Assembly: GCF_002742625.1 (NCBI RefSeq)
Contig: NZ_PEBF01000001.1
Location: 2,666,001 to 2,730,000 of the forward strand
Source of the DNA: Caulobacter sp. FWC2
GTDB taxonomy: Bacteria > Pseudomonadota > Alphaproteobacteria > Caulobacterales > Caulobacteraceae
Direction of reading: 5' to 3'
Length of the DNA stretch: 64,000 bases
Shown here: positions 1 to 34,529 of the stretch, piece by piece
How the letters are laid out: each line of letters opens with the position of its first letter
How positions within the stretch are numbered: position 1 is the stretch's first letter
Made by a program: the position numbers and the translations under genes
Notes under the pieces: model-generated
Databases searched by the model: none
Seen by the model: only the letters and a program-made list of their open reading frames with translations
What the model was told of the DNA's origin: nothing

Positions 1-262
1 CGATGCGGTTGAGCATTCGGGCGCGATCCGAGGGCGAGACCCGGGCCCAGGCCGCCTTGGCGCCGTGAGCGGCGTCGAGGGCGAGTTCCACGTCTTCAGG
101 CCCGGACGATGCGAAGGTGGCGATGGCGCGGCCATTGATCGGGCTATGGTCGGTGAATGAGGCGCCGCCGAGCGGCGCGACCCATCGTCCACCAATCCAG
201 TTGTCGTAGCGCTCGCGGAAGAGCGGCGTGGATTTGACGGTCTTGATGGCTTGCTCGAACAT
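1..262 (-). CDS. aldehyde dehydrogenase, N-terminal part (runs off window)
   Basis: Only the first 87 codons are inside the window. The protein starts MFEQAIKTVK and carries the NWIGGRWV segment at residues 21-28 followed by SPINGR. This is the usual opening of NAD(P)-dependent aldehyde dehydrogenases, which oxidise aldehydes to carboxylic acids in the cytoplasm. The catalytic Cys and Glu lie outside the window, so substrate cannot be judged. The ATG at 262 is preceded by GGAGGAG seven bases upstream. The gene reads away from the metal cluster and probably belongs to the neighbouring chromosome region. Confidence 0.85.
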   Translation of the reverse strand, partial: MFEQAIKTVKSTPLFRERYDNWIGGRWVAPLGGASFTDHSPINGRAIATFASSGPEDVELALDAAHGAKAAWARVSPSDRARMLNRI

Positions 263-362
263 GACGCCGCTCCTCCAATGGTGAGGTCGAACGGTATTTG
301 TCAGCCAGGCGGGGAGTGAATAGGTAGAGTCCGCAGAACTCACCCCCCAACCTTGACTTAAG

Positions 363-416: not shown

Positions 417-782
417 TTACATGTGGTCTTTCATCGGCATGGGCGCGTCCGGCTTATCAGCGGGCATGGCGGGCATGGCGGGCATCGTCTTGCCCTTGCA
501 GCCGGAGCCGTCGCTGCAGCCCATCTTCATGCCCGACGAGGCCGGCGGGTCCTTCTTGGGCGGCATGCCAGCCATGTTCGCCATGCCCGCCGCATGGTCC
601 TTCATCATCTGTTCGTGCATCTGGTCGCCGCCGTGCTGCATCCCTTGCTGATGCTGCGGGGTCGGCTTGGCGGCGGCGGCCGGCTTGGCCGGCATGGGCA
701 TCTTCATGTCGTCGTCGGCGTGTGCCGCCGATCCCAGCGCAAGAAGGCTGAGGGCGGCGATCAAGAGTGACGTCTTGCGCAT
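417..782 (-). CDS. Met/His-rich secreted protein, putative periplasmic metal chelator
   Basis: A 121-aa protein beginning MRKTSLLIAALSLLALG with a cleavable signal peptide ending near AHA. The mature part is low complexity with many Met, His, Lys and Pro residues (MKMPMP, HQQGMQHGGDQMHEQM, then MPAMPAMPADKP) and one C-x4-C pair (GCSDGSGC). Such composition fits Cu(I)/Ag(I) binding in the periplasm, but no family is recognised. The ATG at 782 has GGAG upstream and starts the signal peptide, so I prefer it to the longer frame. It is the last gene of the operon, directly before the terminator. Confidence 0.7.
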   Translation of the reverse strand: MRKTSLLIAALSLLALGSAAHADDDMKMPMPAKPAAAAKPTPQHQQGMQHGGDQMHEQMMKDHAAGMANMAGMPPKKDPPASSGMKMGCSDGSGCKGKTMPAMPAMPADKPDAPMPMKDHM

Positions 783-960: not shown

Positions 961-1392
961 TCAATGACTGGTCATCGCCATCATCGCGCAGCTGGCCGCA
1001 CAGTCGCGGCAGCTGGCCGCGCATCGCTGCATCCGCACATCGTCGAAGCCGGCGCAGTTCTTCGAACAGGCCTCGCAGGCCTTGGCGCAGGCCTCGCAGA
1101 GGACCGTATGGATCGGCGATCCCCGCATCATCGACGTCGCCGTCGCCTGGCAGAGGTCGGCGCAATCCAGCAAGATCGCGATATGGCCCGGGGCGGCGTG
1201 GGCGCCGCCCTTCTCCAGGCTATGCCGGGACGTCTCCATGCACAGACGATAGGTGGCGAGGCAGGCGTCGATGCAGGCCTGCATCGACATGGCGCCCTGA
1301 CCAGGGGCCATGGTCGTGGGCTGGGCCCGGGCGGCGGCGGCAACGGCGGCGAGCGCCAAGCTCGAGACGAGAAGTCCGCGGCGGTCTTGCAT
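961..1392 (-). CDS. four-helix-bundle copper storage protein, Csp1-like, exported
   Basis: A 143-aa protein with an N-terminal DRRGLLVSS segment that resembles a twin-arginine signal, followed by a hydrophobic stretch and an ARA-like cleavage site. The mature part has 14 cysteines spaced as CxxxC or CxxC along predicted helices (ACIDAC, LDCADLC, CEACAKACEACSKNC, RCAASCRDCAASC). This is the pattern of the DUF326/Csp family. Known Csp1 proteins are Tat-exported tetrameric bundles that store many Cu(I) ions on inward-facing cysteines. Its place in this operon suggests buffering of periplasmic copper. Function is inferred from the cysteine pattern and export signal. Confidence 0.85.
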   Translation of the reverse strand: MQDRRGLLVSSLALAAVAAAARAQPTTMAPGQGAMSMQACIDACLATYRLCMETSRHSLEKGGAHAAPGHIAILLDCADLCQATATSMMRGSPIHTVLCEACAKACEACSKNCAGFDDVRMQRCAASCRDCAASCAMMAMTSH

Positions 1393-1405: not shown

Positions 1406-1873
1406 TCAGGTTGACGAGGCGGCGGCGGGCGGCGTCGACGATGCTCCAGGCCTGCGCCCCCTGGTCGCCCCCCGTGCTTGGGACGAAGCCGCGACGGCCT
1501 CCCGGGCCATGCGCGTGTCCTGCCAGGGCCAATGGCCGTTGATCTCGACCCCGAGCGAGATACTGAGGAAGGTGCGCACCAGAACGAGTCCGGCCAGCAC
1601 GATCAGGTCATCGAGGGTGGGGTTGATGACCAGCGATTTGACGATGTCGCCCGCGACCAGGAATTCGAGACCGAGCAGGATGCTGCGGCCCAGGGCCGAG
1701 CGGAACGGGCTGTAGGCCTCGGAATGGTCGGCGCGCCAGGCGCGCTTGAGGAACAGGAAGGTGGCCAGGGCGGCCCCGGCCAAGATCGTCAGGGCGCCGG
1801 CCAGTTCGAGGACGACCACGGCCAGCTTGAAGAAGGCGCTGAGGATGTCGCCGGTAAAATCAGTGGTGATCAT
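1406..1873 (-). CDS. DUF1622 family membrane protein
   Basis: A 155-aa protein with three hydrophobic segments (around residues 15-42, 63-84 and 88-108) and a basic, Ala/Ser/Pro-rich tail. The segment ALGRSILLGLEFLVAGDIVK followed by a second helix and VEINGHWPW is typical of DUF1622 proteins, whose function is unknown. Its start codon lies inside the 3' end of the cytochrome c gene (14-base overlap), indicating translational coupling and a common transcript. It may be a structural partner of the electron-transfer proteins, but that is only suggested by position. Confidence 0.75.
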   Translation of the reverse strand: MITTDFTGDILSAFFKLAVVVLELAGALTILAGAALATFLFLKRAWRADHSEAYSPFRSALGRSILLGLEFLVAGDIVKSLVINPTLDDLIVLAGLVLVRTFLSISLGVEINGHWPWQDTRMAREAVAASSQARGATRGRRPGASSTPPAAASST

Positions 1874-2576
1874 ACCAGCCTCGCTTGCGGATGTTGTTGA
1901 AGCTGTCGGTCGTGTGACAGGCGGAGCATTGATCGACGCGCGCCTTCTCCCCGGCGACCCGTTGCGACACCATGCTAAAATGCATCATCTGGTGACTGGG
2001 CGGCGGCTTGTGGCATTCGGCGCATTGGGTCGAGTTGACCGAGGGATGCCGATACCCCTCGACGCGCCAACTGGTCACGCTGTGGCAACTGGCGCAGGTC
2101 TCCCCGAACAATCCCTGGTGCGGATCCCGCATTGAATGGCAACTGGCGCAGTCCAGGCTGGCGGTCCCGGCATTCCTGGCCACCGCCGGAATCCCCATGG
2201 GATGCTTCCAGACCTTCGGATCCAACAACGCCGGATGGTTCATGCGGGCGAGGCTACGGCCGCCGTCGTGCTCGACGTGGCACGATGTGCACTCGGCGAC
2301 GGTCGCGTGGAACTGGGTCGACTGCTTGCCGCCGAAATCCTGCCCGGCATGGCAGCTCAGGCAGGTTTTCGTCTCCACGCCCTTCAGCGGCGTGTGGCAG
2401 GTCGTGCATTGACCGGCGAAGGTCTGGTGGGCCGCGGAGAGCGGCCCTGGTGAAACAAGACCTTCGATCATGCCGCTGTTGGCCGGCGTATTCGTCCGCA
2501 TGACCGCCGGCAAGCCGACCACAACGACCAGCAGCGCCGCGATGAACAGGCCATAGAACAGCGTCGATCGCTTCAT
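1860..2576 (-). CDS. heptaheme cytochrome c, membrane-anchored or periplasmic
   Basis: A 238-aa protein beginning MKRSTLFYGLFIAALL, so it has an N-terminal signal or anchor. Seven CxxCH heme-c sites are at about residues 57-61, 72-76, 96-100, 143-147, 161-165, 185-189 and 217-221, with extra His residues available as distal ligands. This resembles class III or NrfB/doxX-type multiheme electron carriers. Its ATG overlaps the stop of the upstream cytochrome b gene by four bases, so the two are probably made together. I infer that it takes electrons from the membrane cytochrome b and passes them to a periplasmic acceptor or metal. The longer frame upstream of 2576 is rejected because the signal peptide starts here. 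Confidence 0.88.
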   Translation of the reverse strand: MKRSTLFYGLFIAALLVVVVGLPAVMRTNTPANSGMIEGLVSPGPLSAAHQTFAGQCTTCHTPLKGVETKTCLSCHAGQDFGGKQSTQFHATVAECTSCHVEHDGGRSLARMNHPALLDPKVWKHPMGIPAVARNAGTASLDCASCHSMRDPHQGLFGETCASCHSVTSWRVEGYRHPSVNSTQCAECHKPPPSHQMMHFSMVSQRVAGEKARVDQCSACHTTDSFNNIRKRGWYDHH

Positions 2577-3301
2577 AGCCAACGCAGCCCGTAATAGAGG
2601 GCCGCCCCGACGTGGAGCAGGATCAGCCCATAGAGAATGACCCCGGCCACGATATGCAGCAGGCGCCACTTGGCGAACAGCGAACTGGTCGCGGCTTCCG
2701 CCCGAACGGCGTATTCGCTGTCCGACAGCGCGGCGGCCAGCGTCGCCTTGTCGGCGGGCGCCGGCGCCGCGGGCGGGTCACCCGGCCTGAACAACAAGCG
2801 GGCCAGCCGACCGAGTTGGCGCGGCGGCGGCTCCACGCCCGTGGGCGGCGGCGGCAGGTTCAGATAGGCCGCCTTGAGCGAGGCCAGCTCGGTCTTGCGC
2901 CCGCGCAGCGCCCGCGCCAGCTCGGCCAGGAGAAATCGGCCAACGAACCCGCTCAGGACGGTGAGCAGCAGGAGGCCGGTCAGCATCACCCCGAGGGGAC
3001 TGTCGAGCTTGTGCGCCGCGTGAAGCAGGGCGAGCAGCGGCGCGAGCACGCCGGCGTAGACGTGGACCGCCAAGAGGGTCGGCTTGGCCACAAATCTCGA
3101 CAGGAACCGGTCGACAGCGCCGATGTGCTTGGCCGCCACATAGGGGAGCGTCAGCAACATCATCAGCACGGCGAGAACGCCAAGCATGCCGCCGGCGAAG
3201 CTGCCCGGAAACCGCGACGAGACGTGGATCATGAACCCCAGCGGGAAGACGAGGATGAAGCCCGCGAGCAGCGCCACGAGGATGTCGCCACGCTCGCGCA
3301 T
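2573..3301 (-). CDS. diheme cytochrome b-like integral membrane protein
   Basis: A 242-aa protein with about five transmembrane helices (roughly residues 8-27, 36-57, 75-97, 103-124 and 212-237). Two helices carry His pairs with identical H-x13-H spacing, H80/H94 and H216/H230. This is the arrangement that holds two b hemes across the membrane in cytochrome b and ferric-reductase-like proteins. A Pro-rich cytoplasmic or periplasmic loop separates them. The start overlaps the stop of the reductase gene by one base (TGATG) and the end overlaps the heptaheme cytochrome start. Inference: it carries electrons from the reductase across the inner membrane. Confidence 0.8.
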   Translation of the reverse strand: MRERGDILVALLAGFILVFPLGFMIHVSSRFPGSFAGGMLGVLAVLMMLLTLPYVAAKHIGAVDRFLSRFVAKPTLLAVHVYAGVLAPLLALLHAAHKLDSPLGVMLTGLLLLTVLSGFVGRFLLAELARALRGRKTELASLKAAYLNLPPPPTGVEPPPRQLGRLARLLFRPGDPPAAPAPADKATLAAALSDSEYAVRAEAATSSLFAKWRLLHIVAGVILYGLILLHVGAALYYGLRWL

Positions 3302-5307
3302 CAGGCTTCGACCACGAGCGGCTTGCCGGTCGTCTTAGCCTGGCAGGCGAGGATGTAGCCCTGGACCTTGTCCTCCGGCGCGAGGCCGGACTCAACGGCC
3401 ATGGTGACCTCGCCGTCGATGAGCTTGGTGACGCAGACGCCGCATTCGCCGACACGGCAGGAGTAAGGAATCTCGACTCCCGCGCCTTCGGCGGCTTCGA
3501 GCACCGTCTGGGTGGCGGGCAGCGGCGCCGAGACCCCGGAAACCGAAAAGGTGATGGTGGCGGCTAAGGTTTCCGCCCCCCCTGCGGGCGGCGGCGTTGG
3601 CGTCGGGCCGGGCTTGCCCACGGCCGGGGCGACGGTCGCGGCTTGGGCCGGCGGCTCGAGCGGATCGATCGGCAGGGACGCCGGCCCGAACGCCTCGGTA
3701 TGGAGCTGCGCCTCGGGGACGCCAAGCTCGGCGAGTTGGGCCTTCATGGCCGCCATCATGGCCGGCGGACCGCAAAGGTGAATGCGGCGGCGCGCGAGGT
3801 CCGGGACCACGCTGGTGAGCATCTCCTTGGTGATCGGCCCTTCGGCCCCATGCCACACGGTGCCGGGCGCCCGGTGCATGGCGGCGAAGACGTGCAGGTT
3901 CTCGTGGCGGCGTTCGAGGCGCTCGATGTCCTCGCGGAAGGCAAATTCTTCGGTCGACCGTGCGCCGTAGAGGAAGAAGATCTCGCCTGGCCAGGCGGTG
4001 TCAGTGAGATAGCGCAGGACCGACATCATCGGCGTGATCCCGACGCCGCCGGCGATGAGCACGACGCTGTCAGCGTCGGTCCCCGTGAAGGTGAAGGCGC
4101 CAAAGGGGCCAGAGATTTTGACTAACTCTCCGACCTTCACGTGATCGTGGAGAAAGCGCGAGACAGCGCCCTGCTCTTCGCGCTTCACGGAGAGTTCGAC
4201 ATGGGCGCGCTGGGTCGGGGATGAGGCGATGGTGTACGACCGGCGCGCGGTCTTGCCAGGCTCGGGCTCCACCTCGACCTGGAGAAACTGCCCGGGAAGA
4301 AAGTCGAACGGCAGCCGGTCGGCGGCCGGGTCGGCGAGCCGGAAGGTCAAGATGGTCGGCGTTTCGCGCAGGATCTGCGCGACTCGCAACGCGCCGGTCC
4401 AGCTTCTTGGCTTGCGCGGCGTCGCGCCGGACGGGTCCAAGGCGCTGCTTGGGGCCACAGCCTTCGCCCCGCCTGGCGCGACGGTCGCGGCCGGAGCCGG
4501 CGCGGCGGCTTTTCGGTCGTTTCCAGCCGCGGCCGAGACCGCCGTGGCGCCTGGCGCAGCCGGCGCCCCGGCGACGATCTTGCGGATGCGTTGCAGGCGA
4601 AACAGTTGCAGGGCGATGAGGCTGGCGCTGACGAGCGTCAGAAATAACATCAGCAGCAGATGCGCCGGCGAAATCCCGAACGGATGGGCGGCGTGCTCGC
4701 CCGATAGGACCGTGCCGACCGAAAGCTGCGTCCGGAACCAATTGGTCGCAACGTTCGGTCCCGAGGTCTCGCCTTCCAGAGCGCTCTTCGCGGCCGCGCT
4801 GCTGGCGTAGAGATCGGCGCCCTCTCGAAGCTTCCGCGCCGCCGCCGCACGGGCGGTCGAATTGGAGGCGTGCATGCCTTCGGCGGCGCCCTCGCCCGCG
4901 AGGACAAGGCCGTTGTGGACCCGCGCCTCCGCGTCTCGCGCCAGCGCTTGGCGGGCCTCAGAATCGAGGCCTGGTAGGCCCAGCAGGCGCGAGAAGAACG
5001 GACCGTTGTTCTGGCCGGGGCCGCAACAGCCCGCCATCTGGTCCATCTTCTCCATCATCCCCCCCATCCCCGCCATGGCGGCGTCCTGGGGCGCGCCCGC
5101 CCCCGGCATGGCGGTGGTTGGCATGGCGGGTGTCGGCATGGCGGAGGCGGACGCGGGCGCCATCGCGCCAGGCGCGGCTGGGTCGGCGGCCACGGGATGA
5201 TGGGCGGCGTGCTCGTCAGCGTCCTGCGCCGGCACCGGCGCCGCGGCGGCGACGACGACCAAAAGCGCGACCGCGAGCAGACCTGAAAGGGTTGTCGGTA
5301 AGCGCAT
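3301..5307 (-). CDS. membrane-anchored FNR-type flavin reductase with C-terminal [2Fe-2S] ferredoxin domain
   Basis: A 668-aa fusion. Residues 1-28 are a signal peptide. Residues 30-210 form a Met/His-rich exported region with CC at 94-95. A membrane helix spans about 215-236. From about 305 comes a ferredoxin-reductase module with the FAD motif RRSYTIASS (355-363), the nucleotide site GGVGITPMM (420-428) and CGPP (512-515). The C-terminus is a plant-type [2Fe-2S] domain with C617, C622, C625 and C655. The predicted topology puts the redox domains in the cytoplasm and the metal-binding part outside. It should oxidise NAD(P)H and feed the cytochrome b encoded next. The fusion of a periplasmic metal-binding segment to this reductase is unusual. 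Confidence 0.85.
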   Translation of the reverse strand: MRLPTTLSGLLAVALLVVVAAAAPVPAQDADEHAAHHPVAADPAAPGAMAPASASAMPTPAMPTTAMPGAGAPQDAAMAGMGGMMEKMDQMAGCCGPGQNNGPFFSRLLGLPGLDSEARQALARDAEARVHNGLVLAGEGAAEGMHASNSTARAAAARKLREGADLYASSAAAKSALEGETSGPNVATNWFRTQLSVGTVLSGEHAAHPFGISPAHLLLMLFLTLVSASLIALQLFRLQRIRKIVAGAPAAPGATAVSAAAGNDRKAAAPAPAATVAPGGAKAVAPSSALDPSGATPRKPRSWTGALRVAQILRETPTILTFRLADPAADRLPFDFLPGQFLQVEVEPEPGKTARRSYTIASSPTQRAHVELSVKREEQGAVSRFLHDHVKVGELVKISGPFGAFTFTGTDADSVVLIAGGVGITPMMSVLRYLTDTAWPGEIFFLYGARSTEEFAFREDIERLERRHENLHVFAAMHRAPGTVWHGAEGPITKEMLTSVVPDLARRRIHLCGPPAMMAAMKAQLAELGVPEAQLHTEAFGPASLPIDPLEPPAQAATVAPAVGKPGPTPTPPPAGGAETLAATITFSVSGVSAPLPATQTVLEAAEGAGVEIPYSCRVGECGVCVTKLIDGEVTMAVESGLAPEDKVQGYILACQAKTTGKPLVVEA

Positions 5308-5329: not shown

Positions 5330-5668
5330 TCACATGTGCTTCATCGGCGCGGGCGGGCTGTCGGCGGGCGGCGGCGCGTCGGGCTTGGCGGCGCCCGCGC
5401 GCATGTCGGCATGATCCATCGCCTGTTTGTGATGATGTTCCATGTCGGCGACCTCGTTGCCGGTCCCATCGGCGGGCTGGGCCGACGCATCAGCGGGCGA
5501 AGGCGGCGGCGTCGATCCGACGGGGTTCGTCGTGCTCGCGGTAGCGGCCGCCGGTGTGTTGGCGGTCGAGGTTGAGCTGTCGCGGTTGCAGCCGGCGAGT
5601 GCGAGTCCCGCCATGACCGCCACGCCGCTGATCAGCAGCGATCGGCAGTTGCCGTTGATTGTCATCAA
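5330..5668 (-). CDS. His/Met-rich lipoprotein, putative metal-binding
   Basis: A 112-aa protein with a lipobox LAGC at about residues 24-27, so it should be lipid-anchored after cleavage. The mature part is Ala/Pro/Thr-rich and ends with His and Met clusters (MEHHHKQAMDHADM and PMKHM). These are suitable for binding soft metals in the periplasm. No family is recognised. It lies 22 bases upstream of the reductase gene in the same operon, and the His/Met pattern resembles the exported part of that reductase. Confidence 0.7.
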   Translation of the reverse strand: MMTINGNCRSLLISGVAVMAGLALAGCNRDSSTSTANTPAAATASTTNPVGSTPPPSPADASAQPADGTGNEVADMEHHHKQAMDHADMRAGAAKPDAPPPADSPPAPMKHM

Positions 5669-5727: not shown

Positions 5728-5949
5728 TCATTTCGACTGCCGCAGGATCTGCCGGCAGCGATCGTGCGAGAGGTTCATGGGGTTGCGCCCCTGTCCCTTC
5801 ATCTCCGAGTGATCGTGTCGGTCGGCGACCCCCATATCGCTCTCCATCTGACGACAGCTGGCGATCTGGCTCTCGGTCGGCGCCGTGGTGGCGCAAGCGC
5901 TGAGAAGCGTGGCGGCTGCAAGGGCTGCAGCAACTGCATAAGTCTTCAT
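5728..5949 (-). CDS. small lipoprotein with paired cysteines
   Basis: A 73-aa protein whose signal peptide MKTYAVAAALAAATLLSAC ends in a lipobox (LSAC). The mature domain has two further cysteines (ASCRQMESDM and HDRCRQIL) and a DRHDHSEMKGQG centre. The ATG at 5949 is chosen because GAAGGA sits six bases upstream, while the ATG two codons earlier is too close to it. It follows the MerR-type regulator after 16 bases. I do not recognise a family; similar small lipoproteins occur in copper clusters, so metal binding is a guess. Confidence 0.65.
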   Translation of the reverse strand: MKTYAVAAALAAATLLSACATTAPTESQIASCRQMESDMGVADRHDHSEMKGQGRNPMNLSHDRCRQILRQSK

Positions 5950-5965
5950 GGTCATTCCTTCGCTG

Positions 5966-6427
5966 TCAGGTTTCACGGTTCTTCTCCCCCCTCGTCGTTT
6001 CTGGCTTCGCCGCGGCGCGGGCGCGGGGCCTCGCCGAAATGAAGGCCAGGATCGGGCAGTCGCGGGTTGGGGCCTCGCCCGGACACGCCGCAGCCAGCCC
6101 CTCTAGAATCGTTCGGATAAGGTTGAGCTCATCCACGCGCGTCTCCGCCTGGCGGATCTTGTCGCACGTGATCGCGAGCACAGCCGTAGCTCTGGCGGTG
6201 TCAGACGTCTGTAGGGTGAGAAGCTCGCTGGTTTCGGCGAGCGTGAAGCCCAACCCCTGTCCCGAACGGATGAATCTGAGCCGGAGAAGATCGTCGTCGC
6301 CGTAGAGCCGATAGCCCGCGCCCGACCGACCCGGCGAAAGCAGCAAACCCGTCCGTTCGTAGTAGCGAATGGTGTCGCGGCTGACACCCGCGGCCGTAGC
6401 CAGTTCGCCGATTTTAAACTTTCCCAT
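5966..6427 (-). CDS. MerR-family metal-responsive regulator
   Basis: A 153-aa protein with the MerR winged helix-turn-helix at the N-terminus (KIGELATAAGVSRDTIRYYE) and a dimerisation helix. A C-terminal metal-loop pattern with C-x8-C (CPGEAPTRDC) is followed by PIL. The Cys that Zn/Hg sensors carry near residue 79 is absent; there is a Cys at 88 instead. The inducing metal therefore cannot be assigned, although the Csp1-like and Met-rich operon partners suggest copper or silver. It is the first gene of the operon and probably activates its own promoter at 6449-6470. Confidence 0.88.
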   Translation of the reverse strand: MGKFKIGELATAAGVSRDTIRYYERTGLLLSPGRSGAGYRLYGDDDLLRLRFIRSGQGLGFTLAETSELLTLQTSDTARATAVLAITCDKIRQAETRVDELNLIRTILEGLAAACPGEAPTRDCPILAFISARPRARAAAKPETTRGEKNRET

Positions 6428-6448
6428 GGCATCCGCCCCTTCTGCAGG

Positions 6449-6470
6449 TTGGACCGTGGTCCAAGGTCAA
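6449..6470 (-). promoter_or_regulatory. MerR-type promoter/operator of the cytochrome-Csp1 operon
   Basis: On the minus strand a -35 element TTGACC (6470-6465) is directly followed by the perfect dyad TTGGACCACGGTCCAA (6464-6449). This is the overlong-spacer arrangement typical of MerR activators. It points into the regulator gene at 6427 and there is no comparable plus-strand promoter, so one site should control the whole 6427-417 operon. Confidence 0.75.
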
Positions 6471-6565: not shown

Positions 6566-6916
6566 TCAGTTGCGAACGAGTTCGACGATGTCGTGCTTGG
6601 CGGCGGCGCCGTCGGCGACGCGCACATGGGCGAAGTGTTCGTCGAAGATATGGTCGATCGTCACGTGGCCGACGAGATCACGGCGATACGACGGGGGACC
6701 CTTTGCTGGGCCCGGAAGGGTCTTGACCCGATAGACCTCCAGGCTTTGGCCAACTTCAGCCCCATCGGCCTTGCCGATGCAGATGACCGTGCCGGTGCTG
6801 TCGGCCTGGACGATCGAGCCCCGCATGAAGAAGGTGTGGCCGATGCCCTGGGCCAGGACGGGGGTGGCGGCCAGCATCGCGACGCCAGCCAGAGCCGCTA
6901 CGATCGACTTTTTCAC
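6566..6916 (-). CDS. secreted hypothetical protein
   Basis: A 116-aa protein with a signal peptide (starting KKSIVAALAGVAML, cleavage near VLA). The mature part is a small beta-rich domain (GSIVQADSTGTVICIGKADG, then GQSLEVYRVK and HVRVADGAAAKHDIVELV). The start is taken as GTG at 6916 because AAAGGAGA precedes it by six bases and the signal peptide begins there; the upstream extension looks non-coding. No recognised family. It stands alone between the regulator operon and the acyltransferase, and a strong inverted repeat lies about 90 bases upstream. Confidence 0.65.
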   Translation of the reverse strand: MKKSIVAALAGVAMLAATPVLAQGIGHTFFMRGSIVQADSTGTVICIGKADGAEVGQSLEVYRVKTLPGPAKGPPSYRRDLVGHVTIDHIFDEHFAHVRVADGAAAKHDIVELVRN

Positions 6917-7385
6917 GATTGTCTCCTTTGAAGTTGAGCCGCTCGGAGAGACCGAGGGGAATGAGGTTTCCTTCCCCACCAGGACTAAGGTCCCGGGTCC
7001 CGGGTCTGAATACGTAGATGTCACATCGCGTATTTTTCGAGGATCTCTTCAAATGGCGCCGGCGAGCCTCACCGATCTTTCAAGCTGCTTTCGCCGGTGG
7101 TTTCGTCGTCGCCAATGGTCGTCGCCAAAGGGAGCGCGTCGGCAACGGGCCACGACTGCGGGGCAGGAGCTCGATGGTCCGCGGCCTCACCCACCCAGCT
7201 GCAGTACGCGCCAGCGCGCGTAGCCCCGCCCAGCCAGGTGCGCGTCGGCCGGTTGGGCGGGGCTGCGGCGCGAACCTTCCCATAATGGGCAAGGTCTTGA
7301 AACCAAAGGCGATTCTCAAGCTGTTAGGTAGTTCGGCGCTAGGCTTGGCCATGACCGTCGGCCCAGCGCCGCGACACCAGGCCCG
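6917..7385. other. intergenic region, no convincing gene
   Basis: This 469-base gap between two divergent genes holds a short tandem GTCCCGG repeat near 6990 and a long inverted repeat at 7009-7034. The reading frames that cross it have no ribosome-binding site and no recognisable domain. It presumably contains the promoters of both flanking genes. Confidence 0.5.
7009..7037. promoter_or_regulatory. long inverted repeat, operator or terminator-like
   Basis: AATACG and CGTATT flank an inner pair GATGT/ACATC, giving an almost continuous 11-base stem, followed on the plus strand by TTT. No plus-strand gene ends before it, so a regulatory dyad for the minus-strand gene starting at 6916 is more likely than a terminator. 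Confidence 0.4.
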
Positions 7386-9412: not shown

Positions 9413-10636
9413 ATGCGCTTCATACTGCTTCTGGCGGGCAGCCTTAGCCTGGCCAGCGCGGCCCAGGCTGGCCCTCTGACCTTCGAAGCCGCTCAGCGGC
9501 TGGCCCTGCAGTCACCGGCTCTGGATGGAACCGCCGCCGATCTGGAGGCCGCCAAGGCCCAGGGACGGGCGGCCGGCAAGTTGCCCGATCCCAGGTTACG
9601 GCTGGGTCTGGACAATGCCCCGATCTCCGGACCGCCGGCCGGGACGTTCGGCGGCGACAGCATGACCATGGTCAGCGTCGGCTTGATGCAGGATCGGCCC
9701 AGCGCCGCCAAGCGCGAGGCCGCGCGTCGAGCCGCTTCGGCCGAGGTCTCGACCGCCGGCGCCCGCCAGGCGCTGGTGGCGCGCGAGACGCGGCTGGCCG
9801 TCGCCCTGGCCTGGATCGATCTCTACTACACCGACCAGAAGCTGGCCGCGCTCGCCGCGGTCGAGAAAGCGATCACGCCGCTGCGCGACACCGCGCCGGC
9901 TGCCTTGACGGCTGGCGACGCTCGCCCGGGCCAGACCCTGGAAGCGCAACAGAAGCTGGCCCTGCTGGCCGATCGGCGCAGCGAACTGCTGGCCGACCGC
10001 GCCCGCGCCGCCGCCGAACTGACCCGCTGGACCGGAGAGCCAGGGCCACAACCCATCGGACCGGCGCCCGATTTTCCCATCGACCCCGAGACGCTGCGCG
10101 CCGGCCTCCCCGACCATCCCAGCCTCATGGCGCTGGATGCGGCGCGCCAAATGGCCGGAGCCCAGCTGGCCCAGGCCCGCGCCGAGGCCCATCCCGACAC
10201 CAGTTGGGACATCGCCTATCAGAAGCGCGACGGCGCCTACGGCGACATGGTGTCGCTAGGAGTGACCTTCGGCCTACCGCTGTTTGGCCAATCCCGGCGC
10301 GAACCGCTAATCGCCGCCCAGAGCGCGCGGGTTCGCGGCGCGGAGAGCCAGAAGGCGGCGGGCGCGCGCCAACTTCTCGCCGCGCTGGAGAGCGACCTCG
10401 CAGACCACCAGATGCACCATGAGCAGTTGGCGAGGGCCCAAGAGACCTTGGCGCCGCTGGCCCAGCAGCGCGCCGACCTGGAGACCGCCAGCTACGGCGC
10501 CGGCCGCGCCAGCCTGACCGACGTGCTCGGCGCTCTGCTCGATCTGGCCGAGACCAAGCTTTCGATCCTCGACCGCCAAGCCCTCGTCACGCGCGACAGC
10601 GCCAAGATCAACCTGACCTATGGAACCGCGTCATGA
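9413..10636 (+). CDS. cusC: outer-membrane efflux channel, CusC/CzcC-type TolC family
   Basis: A 407-aa protein with a signal peptide (MRFILLLAGSLSLASAAQA) and the two-fold repeated helical-barrel organisation of TolC-like channels. Features include LTFEAAQRLALQSPAL at the start of the mature protein and the SMTMVSVGLMQD strand segment. It should form the outer-membrane exit duct of the Cus RND pump. Its stop overlaps the cusB start by four bases, and cusB likewise overlaps cusA, so the three are translationally coupled. Confidence 0.88.
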   Translation: MRFILLLAGSLSLASAAQAGPLTFEAAQRLALQSPALDGTAADLEAAKAQGRAAGKLPDPRLRLGLDNAPISGPPAGTFGGDSMTMVSVGLMQDRPSAAKREAARRAASAEVSTAGARQALVARETRLAVALAWIDLYYTDQKLAALAAVEKAITPLRDTAPAALTAGDARPGQTLEAQQKLALLADRRSELLADRARAAAELTRWTGEPGPQPIGPAPDFPIDPETLRAGLPDHPSLMALDAARQMAGAQLAQARAEAHPDTSWDIAYQKRDGAYGDMVSLGVTFGLPLFGQSRREPLIAAQSARVRGAESQKAAGARQLLAALESDLADHQMHHEQLARAQETLAPLAQQRADLETASYGAGRASLTDVLGALLDLAETKLSILDRQALVTRDSAKINLTYGTAS

Positions 10637-12174
10637 GCCGCGCCACGACCCTTTCGCCCCGATCCCTGATCGCGGGCGCCGCCGCCATCGCCCTTCTGGC
10701 TGCGGCCGGGGGCTATGGCCTGGGCCAGTGGCGCAAGGCGCCCGTCCCGGCGGCGGGCGATGCGCCCGGCCGCAAGGTTCTCTACTGGTATGATCCGATG
10801 GTGCCGGCCCAACGCTTCGACAAGCCGGGCAAGTCGCCGTTCATGGACATGCAGCTGGTCCCCCGCTACGCGGACGAAGCCGCGAGCGCGGCGTCGCCTG
10901 GCGTGGCCGTCGATCCGCGCGGCGCCCAGACCCTGGGCCTGCGTTTGGCCCGCGCCGAGATGACGCCGCTCGCCTCTGGCTTGACCGTCCCGGGGTCGAT
11001 CGACTTCAATCAGCGTGACCTGGCCATCGTCCAGACCCGAACCGCCGGCTTCGTCCAGCGTGTCTATGGCCACGCCCCCGGCGACATCGTCGCGGCCGGC
11101 GCGCCGATCGCAGACCTGCTCAATCCCGACTGGGCCGGCGCGCAGACCGAATATCTGGCCGTGCGCCGCGTCGGCGATCCGCGCCTGACGGCTGCGGCGC
11201 GCTCACGCCTGGTCTTGGCCGGGATGAGCGAGCCCTTGATCGCCGCGGTCGAGCGCGGCGGCAGGGTCCAGCCGATCTCCACGGTGCGCGCGCCGATCGG
11301 CGGGGTGATTCAGACCTTGGACGTCCGGGCCGGCATGAGCCTGACCTCGGGCCAGACCCTGGCGCAGATCAGCGGCCTGTCGAGCGTTTGGCTGATCCTG
11401 TCGGCCCCCGAGGCCCAGGCCGGACTGATCAAGATCGGCCAGGCGGTTTCCGCCCAGTTGGCCGCCTTTCCTGGCGAGACCTTCAACGGCCGGGTCAGCG
11501 CCATCCTGCCTTCCGCCCAAGTCGACAGCCGCACCCTGCAGGTACGGGTCGAACTGGCCAATCGCGACGGCCGGCTGCGGCCGGGCATGTTCGCCACGGC
11601 CAGTCTCGGGAGTGATGCGGCGCCGGTCCTGACCGTCCCCAGCGAGGCGGTGATCCGCACCGGCCGTCGGGACTTGGTGATGCTGGCCCAGGGCGGCGGC
11701 CGCTACCAGGCCGCCGAGGTCCGTGTCGGTCGACAGGCCGGCGGTCGCACCGAAATCCTCGGCGGCCTGAAGGCTGGCGATCAGGTCGTGGCCTCCGGCC
11801 AGTTCCTGCTCGACTCGGAAGCCAGCCTCGCCGGCTTGGAACCCAGGCCGCTGTCGGCGGATGAACCGGTGAACTCAATGCCGGCGGGTCCGGCCACGAA
11901 GTCCGCCGCGCCGGCGATGAAGCCGGCGCCGGCCGCCGCCAAGGCGCTGTTGCAAGCGGAGGGACGCATCGAGGAGATCACCGCCGATACCATCACCCTG
12001 AGCCATGGACCGGTGCCGGCGATCGGCTGGCCGGCGATGACCATGACCTTCAAGCTCGATCCGCCAAGCCTGGCTCGGGGATTGAAGGCGGGCGACCAAG
12101 CGGCGTTTGGCTTCGAACAACGTCCTGACGGGCCCGCCGTGCGCAGCCTTCGCCGCGTGGAGGCCAGCCGATGA
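10633..12174 (+). CDS. cusB: CusB-type RND membrane-fusion protein with C-terminal CusF domain
   Basis: A 513-aa periplasmic adaptor with an N-terminal membrane segment. A heavy-metal-binding motif follows (YWYDPM at 51-56, [16 protein letters not shown] at about 62-77), then the lipoyl/barrel adaptor domains. From about residue 440 there is a CusF-like domain with H, W, M, M in exactly CusF spacing ([15 protein letters not shown], residues about 457-471). Adaptors link CusA to CusC and receive Cu(I)/Ag(I) from CusF. Here the chaperone is fused to the adaptor, although a separate cusF also exists at 16882. Confidence 0.9.
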
Positions 12175-15100
12175 TCGCCGCCGTCATTCGCTGGTCGCTG
12201 GGCAACCGCTTCTTCGTGCTGCTCGGGGCCCTGGTCCTGCTGGCCGGCGGGCTGGTGGCGCTGCGCGAAACGCCGCTCGACGCCCTGCCTGATCTCTCCG
12301 ACGTCCAGGTGGTGATCCGCACGCCAGCCCAGGGCCAGGCGCCGCGCCTGGTCGAGGACCAGATCACCTATCCGCTGGCCACCACCATGCTGTCGGTGCC
12401 GGGCGCCAAGACCGTGCGCGGCTATTCCTTCTTCGGCGACAGCTTCGTCTATGTGCTGTTCGCCGACGGGACCGATCCCTATTGGGCCCGCTCGCGGGTC
12501 CTGGAATCGCTGAGCCAAGTCCAGAGCCGGCTCCCGGCCGGGGCCCGCCCTGCCCTGGGTCCCGACGCCACGGGTGTGGGATGGATCTTCGAATACGCCC
12601 TGGTCGACCGAACCGGCCGCCATGACCTCAGCCAACTGCGATCCTTGCAGGACTGGTTCGTGCGCTATGAGCTCAAGACCCTGCCGGGCGTGGCCGAGGT
12701 GGCCAGTATCGGCGGCATGGTGCGTCAGTACCAGGTGGTGCTCGACCCGCAGAAGCTGGCGGCCTACGGGGTCACCCACCAGGCCGTGGTCGACGCGCTG
12801 AACCGGGCCAACCAGGAAGCCGGCGGCTCCGTCGTCGAGATGGCCGAGGCCGAATACATGGTTCGGGCCAGCGGCTATCTGAGCAGCCTGGACGACTTCG
12901 CCGCCGTACCGGTCAAGACCGCGGCCGGCGGCGTGCCGATCGCCCTGGGTCAGGTCGCCACGATCCAGATCGGACCGGAGATGCGCCGAGGGGTCGCCGA
13001 ACTCAATGGTCAGGGCGAGGTTGCCGGCGGCGTGGTCGTTCTGCGTTCGGGCGAGGACGCGCGCGCCACGCTCAAGGCCGTGCAGGACAAGCTGAAGACG
13101 CTCAAGGCCAGCCTGCCGCCAGGCGTTGAGATCGTCACCACCTACGACCGATCGGGCCTGATCGACCGCGCCATCGACAACCTGAAATCCAAACTCTTCG
13201 AGGAGTTCATCGTCGTCGCCCTGGTCTGCGCGCTCTTCCTTTGGCATCTGCGCTCGGCCCTGGTGGCGATCATCGCCCTGCCCCTGGGCGTGCTGACCGC
13301 CTTCATCGTCATGCGGGCCCAGGGCGTCAACGCCAACATCATGTCGCTGGGCGGCATCGCCATCGCCGTCGGGGCCATGGTGGACGCGGCCGTGGTGATG
13401 ATCGAGAACGCCCACAAGCATCTCGAACGTTGGGCGCACGACCATCCCGACCAAACGATCGGCGATCGCGAGCGCTGGGACGAGATCGCCGCCGCCGCCG
13501 TCGAGGTCGGCCCGGCCCTGTTCCTGAGCCTGCTGATCATCACCTTCTCGTTCATCCCGGTCTTCACCCTGCAGGGCCAGGAGGGGCGGCTGTTCGCGCC
13601 GCTGGCCTTCACCAAGACCTATGCCATGGCGGCCGCGGCCCTGCTGTCGATCACCCTGATCCCAGTGCTGATGGGCTATCTGATCCGCGGCAGGATCCCG
13701 GCCGAGACCGCCAACCCGATCAATCGGGCGCTGAGCGCGCTCTACGCCCCGGCCCTGGACTGGGTGCTTGGGCGTCCGCGCACCACGCTGGTCATCGCCG
13801 CCCTGGTCTTCGCCACCACCCTGGTCCCGCTGTCGCGGCTGGGCGGCGAGTTCATGCCGACCCTCGACGAGGGCGACCTGCTCTACATGCCCTCGGCCTT
13901 GCCCGGGCTGTCGGCCGCCAAGGCCAGCGCGCTGCTGCAGCAGACCGATCGGCTGATCAAGACCGTGCCCGAGGTCGACAGCGTGTTCGGCAAGGCCGGC
14001 CGCGCGGAGTCGGCGACCGATCCGGCCCCGCTGGAGATGTTCGAGACCACCATCCGCTTCAAGCCGCGCGACCAGTGGCGCCCCGGCATGACCCCGGAAA
14101 AGCTGGTCGAGGAATTGGACCGCACGGTGGCGGTGCCGGGACTCTCCAACGTCTGGGTGCCGCCGATCCGCAACCGCATCGACATGCTGGCCACCGGGAT
14201 CAAGAGCCCGATCGGGGTCAAGGTGTCGGGCGCGAACCTTGATGACCTCGATCGGGTCGCCCAGCAGATCGCCCAAGTCGCCAAGACCGTGCCAGGGGTC
14301 AGTTCGGCCCTGGCCGAGCGATTGACCGGCGGGCGCTATGTCGATGTCCGCATCGATCGGGCCGCCGCCGGCCGCTACGGCCTCAACATCGCCGACGTCC
14401 AGGCTATCGTCTCGGGCGCGATCGGCGGCCAGACGGTGGGCGAGACCGTCGAGGGCCTGGCCCGCTATCCGATCAGCGTGCGCTATCCGCGCGAGGTGCG
14501 CGGCGATCTGGAGGCCTTGAGGGCGCTGCCGATCCTCACCCCGTCCCTGCAGCAGATCACCCTGGGCACGGTGGCCCAGGTGGCGATCAGCGAGGGCCCG
14601 CCGATGCTCAAGAGCGAGAACGGGCGGCCGACCACCTTCGTCTATGTCGATGTGCGCGGGCGCGACCTGTCTTCGGTCGTCGCCGATCTGCAGCGGGCAG
14701 TGGCCAAGGACATCAAGCCGGTCACCGGCGTGACCATCAGCTATTCGGGTCAGTTCGAATATCTGCAGCGGGCGGTCGAGCGGCTGAAGATCGTCGTGCC
14801 GGCGACGCTGCTGATCATCTTCGTGCTGCTCTACCTGACCTTCCGCCGCTTCGACGAGGCGGCCCTGATCATGGGCGCCCTGCCCTTCGCCCTGACCGGC
14901 GGCTTCTGGGCGCTCTACCTATTGGGCTTCAACCAGTCGGTGGCCACCGGGGTCGGGTTCATCGCCCTGGCGGGCGTCTCGGCCGAGTTCGGGGTGGTGA
15001 TGCTGATCTATCTCAAGCAGGCCTTGGCCGAGCGCCAGGGTGTTCTGAGCGACGCCGACCTCAGCCAAGCGATCCGCGAGGGCGCCTTGCTGCGGGTCAG

Positions 15101-15320
15101 GCCCAAGGCCATGACCGTGGCGGTGATCCTGGCGGGGCTGATCCCGATCCTGATCGGCCACGGCGCCGGCTCGGAGGTGATGAGCCGGATCGCCGCGCCG
15201 ATGATCGGCGGCATGCTCAGCGCGCCGCTGCTGTCGATGTTCGTGGTTCCGGCCGCCTATCTGCTCATCGAACGTCGGCGTCTTAGTCGGCCTCGCGGCC
15301 CCACCATTGCTCATGGATAG
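12171..15320 (+). CDS. cusA: CusA-type heavy-metal RND efflux pump
   Basis: A 1049-aa inner-membrane proton antiporter with the typical two repeats of one plus five membrane helices around large periplasmic loops. The helix-4 signature [17 protein letters not shown] is the form found in monovalent-metal pumps (CusA/SilA) rather than the DFG form of CzcA. A Met-rich periplasmic path is consistent with Cu(I)/Ag(I) export. It overlaps cusB by four bases. It ends five bases before the convergent GDCCVYC gene. Confidence 0.92.
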
Positions 15321-17699: not shown

Positions 17700-18127
17700 C
17701 GAAAGCCCCGGGACGGAGCTGGCTCGCGCCGTGGCGGCGCGCCCGAACCGAGGTCGGCCAGGATCGGACAGTCGGGCCGATCATCGCCCGCGCAATCGCG
17801 AGACAGGTCGCGTAGCGTGTCGGCCATGGCCTGCATCTCCACGATCTTGGCCTCTAGTGCCTGGACATGCCCATCGGCGATCGCCTTAACCTCGCGGCTG
17901 GGCCGGACACGGTCGCGCCAGAGCGACAACAGGTGAGTGATCTCCTCGACCGAAAATCCCAGCGAACGGGCGCGGCGAATGAACCTCAGCTCATTGACCT
18001 CACGCTCGCTGAAGCTGCGATAGTTGCTGTCGGTGCGGCCGGCGGGCGTGATCAGTTTGATCTGCTCATAGTAGCGGATCATCTTGGCCGAGACCCCGGA
18101 CGCCTTGGCCGCCTGTCCGATGTTCAT
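17696..18127 (-). CDS. cueR: CueR-type copper-responsive MerR regulator
   Basis: A 143-aa regulator starting [21 protein letters not shown], with S77 and the C112/C120 pair at exactly the positions that define Cu(I)/Ag(I) sensing in E. coli CueR ([10 protein letters not shown]). It is encoded downstream of copA with a four-base overlap. It is therefore made from the promoter it activates, as well as possibly from internal starts. Probable targets are the related dyads at 16752, 20651 and 24191. Confidence 0.92.
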
Positions 18128-20613
18128 GCGTGCGTGCTCCTTGGCTTGGCGGCGGGCAGAGGCGAGGTGAAGGCGCGCAGGCGCAAAGCGTTGGACAGGA
18201 CGCTGACGCTGGACAGCGCCATCGCGCCGGCCGCCACCATCGGCGAAAGCGACAGACCAAAGGTCGTCGCGAGCGCGCCCGCCGCCACCGGGATCAGGAC
18301 GACGTTGTAGCCGAAGGCCCAGACCAGGTTCTGGCGGATGTTGCGCAAGGTCGCCCGGCTCAGCGCCAAGGCGTTGACCACGCCGCGCAGATCCCCGCCC
18401 ATCAGCACGACGTCGGCGCTCTCGATGGCGATGTCTGTCCCCTGCCCCATGGCCAGGCCGACATCGGCGCTGGCCAGGGCCGGCGCGTCATTGACGCCGT
18501 CGCCGACGAACGCCGTCGCGCCATGGCGGGCGCGCAGCGCCGCGATCGCCTCGGTCTTGCCCTGGGGCAGCACCTCGGCCACGACCTCGTCGATACCGAG
18601 GATTTTGGCGACCGCCTCGGCGGTGCGGCGATTATCGCCGGTGATCATCGCCACCTTCAGGCCCTGGGCGTGCAGGGCGGCTATGGCGGCCGGCGCGGTT
18701 TCGCGAATGGGATCGGACACCGCGAGAATGGCCGCCAGTCGTCCGTCGAGCGCCACATAGAGCGGGCTCTTGCCGGCGTCCCCTAGGCGGGCGGCGTCCC
18801 TGGCGAAGGGCCCGACGTCCAGCGCCAGGCGCAGCATGTAGCGATCGGCGCCGATCTCGACGCGGTGGCCGGCCACGATCCCTTGCGCTCCAAACCCTGG
18901 CGTCGAGGCAAAATCGCTCAACGCGCCGAGCGTCGCGCCTTCGGCCTTGGCCGCGGAGACGATGGCCTGGGCGATCGGGTGCTCGGAACGCGCCTCGACC
19001 GCCGCCGCCAGGCCCAGGACCTCGCCCCGGCCAAACCCTTCCGCGAGGATCAAATCGGTCAGTTCGGGCCGGCCTTTGGTCAGGGTGCCGGTCTTGTCGA
19101 GCGCTACGACCTTGGCGTCCTGCAGCGCCTGCAGGGCTTCGCCACGGCGGAACAGAACGCCCAGCTCGGCGGCTCTGCCGGTCCCGACCATGATCGAGGT
19201 CGGCGTGGCCAGACCCATGGCGCATGGACAGGCGATGATCAGCACCGCCACCGCGTGAACGAGCGCCAAGCCCAGGGCGGGCGACGGGCCGAACACCAGC
19301 CAGGCCAGGAAGGTCGCGACGGCCACGGCGATGACGGCGGGCACGAACCAAGCGGTGATCTTGTCGACCAAGGCCTGGATTGGGAGCTTGGACCCCTGCA
19401 CGGCCTGGACCATGCGCACGATCTGGGCGAGCAGGGTGTCGCCGCCGACCTTGGTCGCCTTGAACCGCAAGGCGCCGGTGGTGTTGACCGTGCCGCCGAC
19501 CACCAAGGCCCCGACGGACTTCTCGACGGGGATCGGCTCCCCTGTGATCATCGCCTCATCGACAAACGACACACCGTCGATAACGACGCCATCGACCGGG
19601 AGGCGTTCACCAGGACGGACCAGCACCAGATCGCCGGGCACGACCTCGCCGATGGCGACCTCGACGGCCTGGCCATCGCGTTCGACCCGCGCGGTCTTGG
19701 CTTGCAGGGTCATCAGCCGCTTGATCGCCTGGCTCGTCGCGCCCTTGGCCCGGGCTTCGAACCATCGACCCATCAAGATCAGGGTGACGATGACCGCGGC
19801 GGCCTCGTAGTAGACGCCGTCCGTCCCGGCCGGCAGCAGGCCCGGCGCCAGGGTCCCGACCAGCGAATAGCCGAAGGCCGCGCTCGCGCCGAGCACGACC
19901 AGGCTGTTCATGTCGGGCGTCAGGCGCAGCAGGTTTGGGACGCCCTTGCGATAGAAGCGCAGTCCAGGCCCGAACAGCACGATGCTGGCCAGAACCAGGC
20001 TGATCAGCCGCCAGGCTTGCTCGCCTAGCGTCGCCGCCAGCAGATGGTGGGCGCCTGGGACGAAATGGCGGGCCATCTCGACGACGAAGAGCGGCGCGGT
20101 GGCCAGGGCGGCGATCAGAACCGCGCGCTTGAGGCCAGCGATCTCCGCCTCGCGGGCCTTGGCTTCGTCGTCGCCGGCGTCGCCGCTGGCGTCTGGCGCC
20201 AGGCTCGCCGTGTATCCCGCCTCGGCAACTACCTTGATCAGCGCATCGGGGTCCAGAGCGCCGCGCGCGCCGCTGACGCTAGCCCGTTCTGTGGCCAGGT
20301 TGACCACCGCCCGCTCAACCCCAGGCGCCTTCAGCAACGCCTTTTCGACGCGAGAGACGCAAGATGCGCAGGTCATGCCGACAATGCGCAGATCGATCGT
20401 CTGATCGACGAGATCATAGCCGGCCTGGCGGATCGCGGCGCCGATCGCGATGGGATCGCCGCCTTCAACGTGAACGCGCTTGGCCGCGAGATTGACGCTG
20501 GCGGACGTCACGCCCGGCACGGCGGCAACCGCCATTTCGACCCGCCGCACGCAGGACGCGCAGGTCATTCCGACCACGGGCAGGTCCAGGATGTTGAGGT
20601 TTTGGTCGGGCAT
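18124..20613 (-). CDS. copA: CopA-type Cu(I)-exporting P1B ATPase
   Basis: An 829-aa ATPase with two N-terminal HMA domains, each with GMTCASC, eight membrane helices, the TGEP actuator motif and the transmembrane CPC motif ([11 protein letters not shown]). DKTGTLT phosphorylation and GDGVNDAP hinge motifs are also present. This set is that of P1B-1 pumps exporting Cu(I)/Ag(I) from cytoplasm to periplasm. The ATG at 20613 is preceded by AGGAGA. An upstream in-frame ATG at 20661 would overlap the operator. It is the first gene of copA-cueR-17268. Confidence 0.94.
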
Positions 20614-20650
20614 CGACTGTCTCCTGTTCTCGATGCCCAGCTTTGTGATC

Positions 20651-20672
20651 CCTCCCATCATGGGAAGGTCAA
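20651..20672 (-). promoter_or_regulatory. CueR operator/promoter of copA
   Basis: Minus strand: TTGACC (20672-20667) overlaps the dyad CCTTCCCATGATGGGAGG (20668-20651). A CACAAA -10-like element follows after 19 bases. The overlong spacer and dyad position match known CueR promoters. Confidence 0.8.
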
Positions 20673-24073: not shown

Positions 24074-24186
24074 CCTTGGTCAATAGGCGGCGACGCCTTG
24101 CTTTCCAAGTCAAGAAGCGGGCAACCTCGACCGATCATTCGCCGTTGTCGTGTCGATGGCTGGTCCCAATGAATTTGACCGGGTCG

Positions 24187-24217
24187 ATATCCTTCCCATC
24201 ATTGGAATCTTTATTCC
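24187..24217 (+). promoter_or_regulatory. CueR-type promoter of the multicopper oxidase gene
   Basis: The dyad CCTTCCCATCATTGGAA (24191-24207) aligns with the copA operator. A 19-base spacer separates a weak -35 ATATCC (24187-24192) from a -10 TATTCC (24212-24217). The ATG follows 15 bases later with AGGAAG as ribosome-binding site. Confidence 0.6.
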
Positions 24218-24231
24218 GGCAGGAAGCACCG

Positions 24232-28333: not shown

Positions 28334-28566
28334 CGGCGGGCGCAGCAAGTCGTCTCCCCAGCGATCGTCCTGAACGCCGGCCGAAGTCGCGCCGGGCCTT
28401 TGATGCGGTCTAGGCGATTGAGCGGCCTGGGCTTGTCTTGGATCAAATCCCCAGCTGTGGAGTTGCGGCATATACCCCGCGAAGGCGTCTCGCCCATTCT
28501 CCATTGCGCATATGGGCGCGCGTCCACACGATTTGCGAAGCCGTCGCGAGGCTAGATAGGGACGAC

Positions 28567-34522: not shown

Positions 34523-34529
34523 GGCGCCC

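Follow-up and report, generated by a model that had tools for sequence, protein, structure and literature searches.

Several described systems move electrons towards or across the bacterial inner membrane. In flavocytochromes of the NADPH oxidase, ferric reductase and STEAP type, electrons pass from NAD(P)H to FAD and then through haem b across the membrane; MsrPQ, together with Fre, combines a cytoplasmic flavin reductase, a dihaem b membrane protein and a periplasmic partner; and in CymA, NrfH, NapC and the metal-reducer chains, a membrane-tethered multihaem cytochrome c feeds periplasmic acceptors from quinol. Accounts of periplasmic copper resistance usually invoke binding, oxidation and pumping, and to our knowledge the parts of the known copper islands do just that, none of them bringing in NAD(P)H electrons. 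Here we describe a unit of three overlapping genes (the trio) in a 64,000-nucleotide stretch of DNA from Caulobacter sp. FWC2, the whole of which is called the window. The trio encodes a membrane-anchored flavin and iron-sulphur reductase, a five-helix membrane protein and a cytochrome c with seven haem motifs, and it stands in an operon of copper-island type. We think it probable that the three proteins make up an outward, NAD(P)H-driven electron conduit through the membrane.

The genome measures 5.5 Mb and the contig that contains the window 5.2 Mb; Caulobacter sp. 1776 is among the closest protein matches. The features of the trio, all on the minus strand, are as follows.

3301..5307, minus: membrane-anchored FAD/NAD(P)/[2Fe-2S] reductase, candidate conduit subunit 1, 668 amino acids (Pfam and alignment)
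5197..5211, minus: HxxHH, reductase residues 33-37, predicted exported part (conservation and shuffling)
5044..5055, minus: MxxM, reductase residues 85-88, predicted exported part (conservation in 28 reductases)
4603..4659, minus: predicted transmembrane helix, reductase residues 217-235, with H216 and M220 at its outer edge (hydropathy)
3334..3540, minus: Fer2 [2Fe-2S] domain with C617, C622, C625 and C655 (Pfam and alignments)
2573..3301, minus: five-helix membrane protein, putative dihaem cytochrome b, candidate conduit subunit 2, 242 amino acids
1860..2576, minus: predicted heptahaem cytochrome c with a likely N-terminal anchor helix, candidate conduit subunit 3, 238 amino acids

The trio is a conserved and mobile unit

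The initial annotation had described three overlapping genes, and their frames and coordinates (window 1860-5307) were confirmed. The reductase and membrane protein genes share one nucleotide (3301) in a TGATG, the membrane protein and cytochrome genes share four (2573-2576) in an ATGA, and the cytochrome gene overlaps the following DUF1622 gene by 14 nucleotides. Chance co-occurrence, which that annotation had named as grounds for rejecting its proposal, is not what the wider survey found. Scanning genomes for the membrane protein yielded 46 loci, all of which also have the reductase and the cytochrome. Across 80 regions, chosen by the membrane protein or by the cytochrome and including the window and distant relatives, the membrane protein occurs in 78 and the full trio in 67; in 66 of these 67 complete loci the three genes are adjacent on a single strand within 3.5 kb, reductase first, then membrane protein, then cytochrome. 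The sole exception (L081) has two copies of the trio, with the best-scoring reductase taken from the other copy; the reductase gene of its first copy adjoins an IS3 transposase. Eleven regions are incomplete, ten from a distant branch and one with a cut end. Because 38 of the 75 clustered entries belong to one near-identical cluster, the fair count is 31 clusters at 90% identity, and these 31 representatives are used below.

The trio is found in Alpha-, Beta- and Gammaproteobacteria and in Bacteroidota. A chance neighbourhood is rejected by the constant order and adjacency together with this recurrence in three proteobacterial classes and a further phylum, and the trio is a genuine unit. In a sample of 398 genomes from the phylum, seven have a close homologue of the membrane protein (E < 1e-70, own genome included), all seven with the trio, and weak matches occur in 25 more. 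A class sample of 385 gave three close homologues (E < 1e-50, own genome included), one of which has its cytochrome cut by the end of the contig. Within the genus there are two close homologues in 37 genomes, with a third found in addition, a rarity that fits transfer. The membrane protein occurs in 37 plasmid records, of which 26 are conjugative, mostly from sphingomonads. The cytochrome search reached wider, to 53 records that include Alteromonas, Variovorax, Legionella, Pontibacter and Spirosoma; of nine regions opened from these, eight contain the whole trio in its usual order, and the ninth, from Emticicia, has larger cytochromes and other partners.

Domains, putative haem ligands and predicted topology

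In the reductase, FAD_binding_6 (PF00970), NAD_binding_1 (PF00175) and Fer2 (PF00111) all score above their Pfam cut-offs; the three models match all 24 aligned sequences (E up to 1), and the cluster cysteines C617, C622, C625 and C655 are invariant in the alignments. Hydropathy predicts a signal or anchor at residues 7-25 and a transmembrane helix at 217-235, which would leave about 190 residues outside the membrane and the catalytic part inside. The predicted exported segment contains HxxHH in 25 of 28 reductases (residues 21-190 tested), against 0.06 expected by shuffling. The three misses are a sequence with the motif at residue 20 (L109), one with it upstream of the chosen start (L081) and one that lacks it (L105). 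Conservation over the 28 reductases is 0.93 for each of H33, H36 and H37, 0.93 for M85 and 0.96 for M88 of the MxxM, 1.00 for W190, 0.93 for M220 and 1.00 for H216, the last falling to 0.97 in a wider alignment. Both HxxHH and MxxM are kept across phyla, in agreement with the Met/His-rich exported segment that the initial annotation had assigned to an FAD/[2Fe-2S] reductase.

The membrane protein has two H-x13-H pairs, H80/H94 and H216/H230. This pattern, too, had been seen from the single sequence, and the wider alignments bear it out: the four histidines are invariant in 38/38 aligned sequences and in 31/31 cross-phylum representatives, giving in all 31 the bis-histidine pattern of Ferric_reduct proteins, with two helices and a spacing of about 13 residues. 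Two further histidines are conserved, H26 (1.00 in 29 aligned sequences) and H97 (0.97). Helices 2 and 3 are joined by a loop with a mean net charge of +4.4; judged by this charge, H80 and H216 would face the cytoplasm, whereas H94, H230, H97 and H26 would lie towards the outside. No Pfam family, haem b families included, scores above its cut-off in the protein. The commonest weak matches of its homologues are DUF4405 (24/38), Ni_hydr_CYTB (13/38) and Ferric_reduct (PF01794, 13/38), the last at E up to 1 with a best value of 0.0017 and without a match in the window protein. The structure model is good (predicted local distance difference test, pLDDT, 83.8), and in a fold comparison SpNOX and STEAP1 superpose at low root-mean-square deviation (rmsd), but unrelated helical proteins reach similar Z scores.

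The cytochrome contains seven CxxCH motifs, the number first counted in the initial annotation, and an alignment of 28 sequences, including a truncated one, shows their cysteines and histidines to be invariant or almost invariant. Exactly seven motifs are present in the cytochrome frame of 63 of the 67 complete loci; the exceptions have one (L062, at a contig end), three (L085, with a broken frame), six (L088) and ten (L095). Eight extra histidines are invariant in the 28 sequences (H50, H90, H103, H114, H153, H177, H195 and H199). Conserved at >=0.95 over the 31 representatives, in an alignment where start trimming shortened some cytochrome rows, are H50, H90, H103, H114, H177, H195, H199 and H238, without H153. 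Either set would suffice for seven bis-histidine haems. Cytochrom_c3_2 (PF14537, 29.2 bits, cut-off 25) and Cytochrome_C7 (PF14522, 27.2 bits, cut-off 24.8) both match, and the NrfH and DmsE family models are not matched above cut-off. The model of the N-terminus has a hydrophobic helix at residues 3-26, confident only to about residue 20, which likely anchors the protein to the membrane.

Operon and neighbouring genes

The trio is part of a tight minus-strand operon that runs from merR through a small, putatively exported protein, a putative lipoprotein, the reductase, the membrane protein, the cytochrome, a DUF1622 protein and a Csp1-like protein to a Met-rich protein. The other features at and around the operon are listed here, with the number of the 46 loci that have each where it was counted.

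6566..6919, minus: small exported protein upstream of merR, of no known family (43/46 loci)
6447..6470, minus: MerR-type operator TTGACC-TTGGACC-AC-GGTCCAA-CC upstream of merR
5966..6427, minus: MerR-family metalloregulator (Pfam MerR_1 and MerR-DNA-bind; alignments to CueR/MerR chains and orthologs; 40/46 loci)
5728..5976, minus: small, putatively exported protein (near the trio in 41/46 loci)
5330..5668, minus: putative lipoprotein rich in Met and His, immediately before the reductase gene (41/46 loci)
1406..1873, minus: DUF1622 membrane protein (PF07784, 81 bits against a cut-off of 24; 46/46 loci)
961..1392, minus: Cys-rich exported Csp1-like protein (weak TIGR04401 match; 45/46 loci)
417..782, minus: Met-rich small exported protein at the operon end (34/46 loci)
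9413..10636, plus: CusC-like TolC protein, divergent from the operon
10633..12174, plus: CusB-like adaptor with a CusF-like C-terminus
12171..15320, plus: CusA/CzcA-family pump

The small protein at 6566-6919 shows about 72% identity across most of its 43 loci. The Csp1-like protein is so labelled only for likeness, its TIGR04401 score being 22.7 bits, under the cut-off of 100. The pump passes TIGR00914 (1388.8 bits, cut-off 701.45), the adaptor stays under the CusB cut-off (NF007303, 336.5 bits against 390), and the CusF-like domain occupies residues 433-497 at the adaptor's C-terminus. Matches to these CusC, CusB and CusA proteins occur in many of the 46 loci; at L086 the corresponding genes are annotated as TolC, adaptor and resistance-nodulation-division (RND) permease. 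The metal island continues over window 15307-41960, with copper-type P-ATPases (18124-20661 and 28438-30918), a DUF4396/multicopper oxidase reading frame (24001-26154), a NicO transporter (34449-35657) and an RND pump (38724-41960).

Genes for an aldehyde dehydrogenase (ALDH) and AdhP follow directly on the operon's strand (window 1-343 and beyond the window start), and about 5 kb past them, on the opposite strand, there are matches to DUF411, PcoB and PcoA. ALDH, AdhP and phosphogluconate or glyceraldehyde-phosphate dehydrogenases recur near the trio, and we offer only as a suggestion that such enzymes could supply NAD(P)H. At L100 (13700-16300) ALDH and AdhP directly follow the operon as they do in the window, an arrangement of the Sphingobium and Caulobacter islands; AdhP also occurs in Variovorax.

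More widely, the recurrent neighbours of the trio are multicopper oxidases, PcoB, copper or heavy-metal ATPases, DUF305, DUF411 and Csp-like proteins, and Cus-type or other RND pumps. Copper markers were drawn from some of the loci themselves. In a similarity test that ignored markers from a locus's own cluster, a marker lies near 24 of the 31 loci, against two of 22 control stretches (20 from the same chromosome and two from the window, all non-plasmid; one of the two positive controls, window 20-40 kb, is part of the same metal island). In this test 19/31 loci have a marker when pumps, ATPases and CsoR are left uncounted, and clusters that supplied no marker have one in 17/23; a plain count that keeps own-cluster markers gives 25/31.

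Regulation

The stretch preceding merR contains TTGACCTTGGACCACGGTCCAACC. With up to three mismatches allowed, the window has no second match, and none is expected; the genome holds one exact copy and one further site with three mismatches. It resembles MerR-type promoter dyads, and its GGACC-N2-GGTCC core stands in the same place before merR at 38/46 loci, representing 11 of 17 distinct upstream sequences. The regulator scores 101.6 bits with the CueR model, under its cut-off of 147.4. Its metal-binding loop, CPGEAPTRDC, has two cysteines and is one residue longer than that of CueR, and in alignments to CueR and MerR chains and to orthologs an alanine occupies the position of CueR Ser77, which corresponds to ZntR Cys79. 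The two loop cysteines and the lack of Cys79, the usual mark of CueR/HmrR-type copper regulators, suggest a monovalent ligand. The MerR protein would then probably read GGACC-N2-GGTCC and turn the operon on when a monovalent metal rises.

A probable outward conduit and its proposed electron acceptor

We propose the following route. In the anchored reductase, cytoplasmic NAD(P)H would reduce first FAD and next the [2Fe-2S] cluster; two haems b, held by H80/H216 on the inner and H94/H230 on the outer side, would carry the electrons across the membrane; and the tethered heptahaem cytochrome would take them up and spread them in the periplasm, the three proteins forming one inner-membrane complex. 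In copper islands the likeliest final acceptor would be periplasmic Cu(II), gathered by the HxxHH/MxxM domain of the reductase and by the neighbouring Met/His-rich proteins, and the resulting Cu(I) would be the form used by the CusCBA-type pump, the Csp-like store and the Met-rich proteins.

The initial annotation had placed such a chain in a copper-type operon. That part is now well supported, as far as sequence can speak for haem insertion and direction of flow, by the domains, the predicted topology, the invariant ligands and the co-conservation. The copper acceptor is still something we infer: the flanking genes, the exported HxxHH/MxxM and the Cys79-less MerR protein all point to it, and we favour Cu(II) because a copper-like exported domain is kept across phyla in the company of a Cu(I)-type pump and store. 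For conduit and Cu(II) reduction jointly we see the chances as about even. The fullest version, which we hold only tentatively, is a mobile, cross-phylum resistance module in which the NAD(P)H-driven complex, equipped with a copper-catching exported domain, reduces periplasmic Cu(II) and, working beside and against multicopper oxidases, sets the periplasmic Cu(I)/Cu(II) ratio, and which has been re-used as the electron link of a NiFe hydrogenase.

A number of observations weigh against these proposals. For the haems b, the membrane protein passes no haem b family cut-off and its homologues match only weakly; its HHalign comparison with Ferric_reduct proteins is weak (probability 26%), Foldseek alone gives no match at E 0.001, and the fold comparison scores unrelated helical proteins equally high. 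The structure model of the cytochrome is poor (pLDDT 50.5). For copper, PcoA or multicopper oxidase, usually credited with the opposite reaction, is matched in 14/31 loci. In the stricter count seven of the 31 loci have no copper marker (those of Alteromonas, Glaciecola, Methylocystis and Bradyrhizobium, with L084, L091 and L095), among which L084, from Rhizorhabdus wittichii, has a DUF305 protein and an ATPase that themselves served as markers. The operator, TTGGACC-N2-GGTCCAA, lacks the ACCTTCC core of the CueR/HmrR signal, ACCTTCC...GGAAGGT, as given in PMC1526738. Finally, on plasmids of Alteromonas (L103 6461-18893) and Glaciecola (L082 7213-20747) the trio precedes NiFe-hydrogenase genes on the same strand, with no copper marker within 10 kb on either side, and may thus be a general conduit.

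Taken further, this last arrangement would make the trio a reversible link between NAD(P)H and the periplasm whose partner is set by its neighbours, copper proteins in the islands and NiFe hydrogenase in Alteromonas, where electrons from H2 could even run inward to NAD(P)+. On Alteromonas plasmid pAM1A3 the trio, a protein of about 407 amino acids without a Pfam or NCBIfam match, and the hydrogenase genes are on one strand, with gaps of only 12 and 14 bp around the 407-residue gene; Glaciecola shows the same order, and in a more distant branch the membrane protein is partnered by cytochromes of 8 to 24 haems, with this reductase missing. The reductases of both plasmids are nevertheless Met-rich with HxxHH, features for which a hydrogenase partner has no obvious use, and an Alteromonas genomic island has been reported to carry a copA cluster and hydrogenase genes together (PMC8478169). 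On balance we regard the general, reversible conduit as rather unlikely. 

The chain might instead feed a repair or redox protein, directed at oxidised Met or Cys of the Met-rich copper proteins or at a DUF411 (CopG-like) copper centre, for which MsrQ to MsrP transfer and CopG are precedents. There are Met-rich proteins within the operon, and DUF411 lies near several loci, but it is not constant across them, and the feature tables of 19 annotated regions, incomplete as they are, name neither a molybdopterin nor an Msr-type product; we find such a role improbable. Less credible still is a role in reducing some other toxic ion (Ag(I), Au(III), chromate or tellurite, for example), the copper genes then being passengers in the same islands. 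By the usual specificity rule, Ag(I) or Au(I) would also suit a Cus-type pump and a MerR protein without Cys79, but the named neighbours that recur are copper oxidases, PcoB, DUF305, Csp-like proteins and copper ATPases, and the same 19 regions name no chromate or tellurite product. Reduction of periplasmic Cu(II) stays our preferred role for the conduit in copper islands.

Distant relatives of the membrane protein

The distant branch consists of proteins of about 190-400 amino acids. By similarity, cytochromes with 8-24 CxxCH lie alongside in nine of its ten loci, and in the tenth (L098) a 10-CxxCH protein adjoins the membrane-protein relative. Six loci have cytochromes with 21-24 CxxCH (L058 7194-9891, L060 1-4296, L063 4223-7678, L064 1-3657, L093 8826-13616 and L099 9019-16473). 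CcmF/CcmG matches are found in four of the ten loci and adjoin four of these six. At L059 (5285-12720), in the window's own genus, an 815-residue protein with cyclic-nucleotide-binding (cNMP-binding), Pyr_redox and Fer4 domains, a weak membrane-protein relative, a 10-CxxCH cytochrome and a CHASE2-cyclase are clustered, possibly for redox signalling; L066 (3791-8779) has proteins of similar sizes, Pfam having been run on L059 alone. L095 (4675-7532), from the same phylum but another class, is more remote: its anchored reductase occupies two overlapping frames, and it also has a membrane protein and a 10-CxxCH cytochrome. The distant loci suggest an older pair of haem b protein and multihaem cytochrome c that may have been joined to different electron donors. 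On a Methylophaga plasmid (L080 14751-20750) the trio is followed by a set of ccm genes, ccmA to ccmI, as though the means of haem attachment moved with it.

Comparison with known systems

No description of the trio was found in the literature searched (titles and starts of abstracts among the hits listed, with most subscription journals outside the coverage). Each part is of a known kind; it is the three-part chain and its copper-island setting that were not found described there. If the proposed role is correct, an NAD(P)H-to-periplasm chain would add active metal reduction to copper resistance and would account for the supply that Cu(I)-type pumps and stores receive in aerobic cells. The trio also offers a three-gene complex of flavin, haem b and multihaem c type that can be expressed and assayed and, because its membrane subunit is carried on conjugative plasmids mostly of sphingomonads, it may be a common, unrecognised part of mobile copper resistance in these bacteria.

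The two H-x13-H helices of the membrane protein recall flavocytochromes such as SpNOX (8qt6) and STEAP1 (8ucd), which match its fold at low rmsd in a comparison where unrelated helical proteins reach similar Z scores. Unlike in that type, the dehydrogenase is encoded apart, with a transmembrane helix, an exported domain and a [2Fe-2S] cluster of its own, the membrane protein has five predicted helices and falls short of the Ferric_reduct cut-off, and a heptahaem cytochrome c follows. Like MsrPQ with Fre, the trio has a flavin reductase, a putative dihaem b protein and a periplasmic partner; the conserved partner, however, is a heptahaem cytochrome, and no molybdopterin partner is named in the annotated loci, incomplete as their tables are. 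It resembles CymA, NrfH and NapC in its predicted tethered multihaem cytochrome c, whereas its donor appears to be NAD(P)H, acting through a Fer2 reductase, and not quinol. With the plasmid copper islands of PcoAB, CusCBA, Csp1, DUF411 and DUF305, the trio shares both genomic company and mobility.

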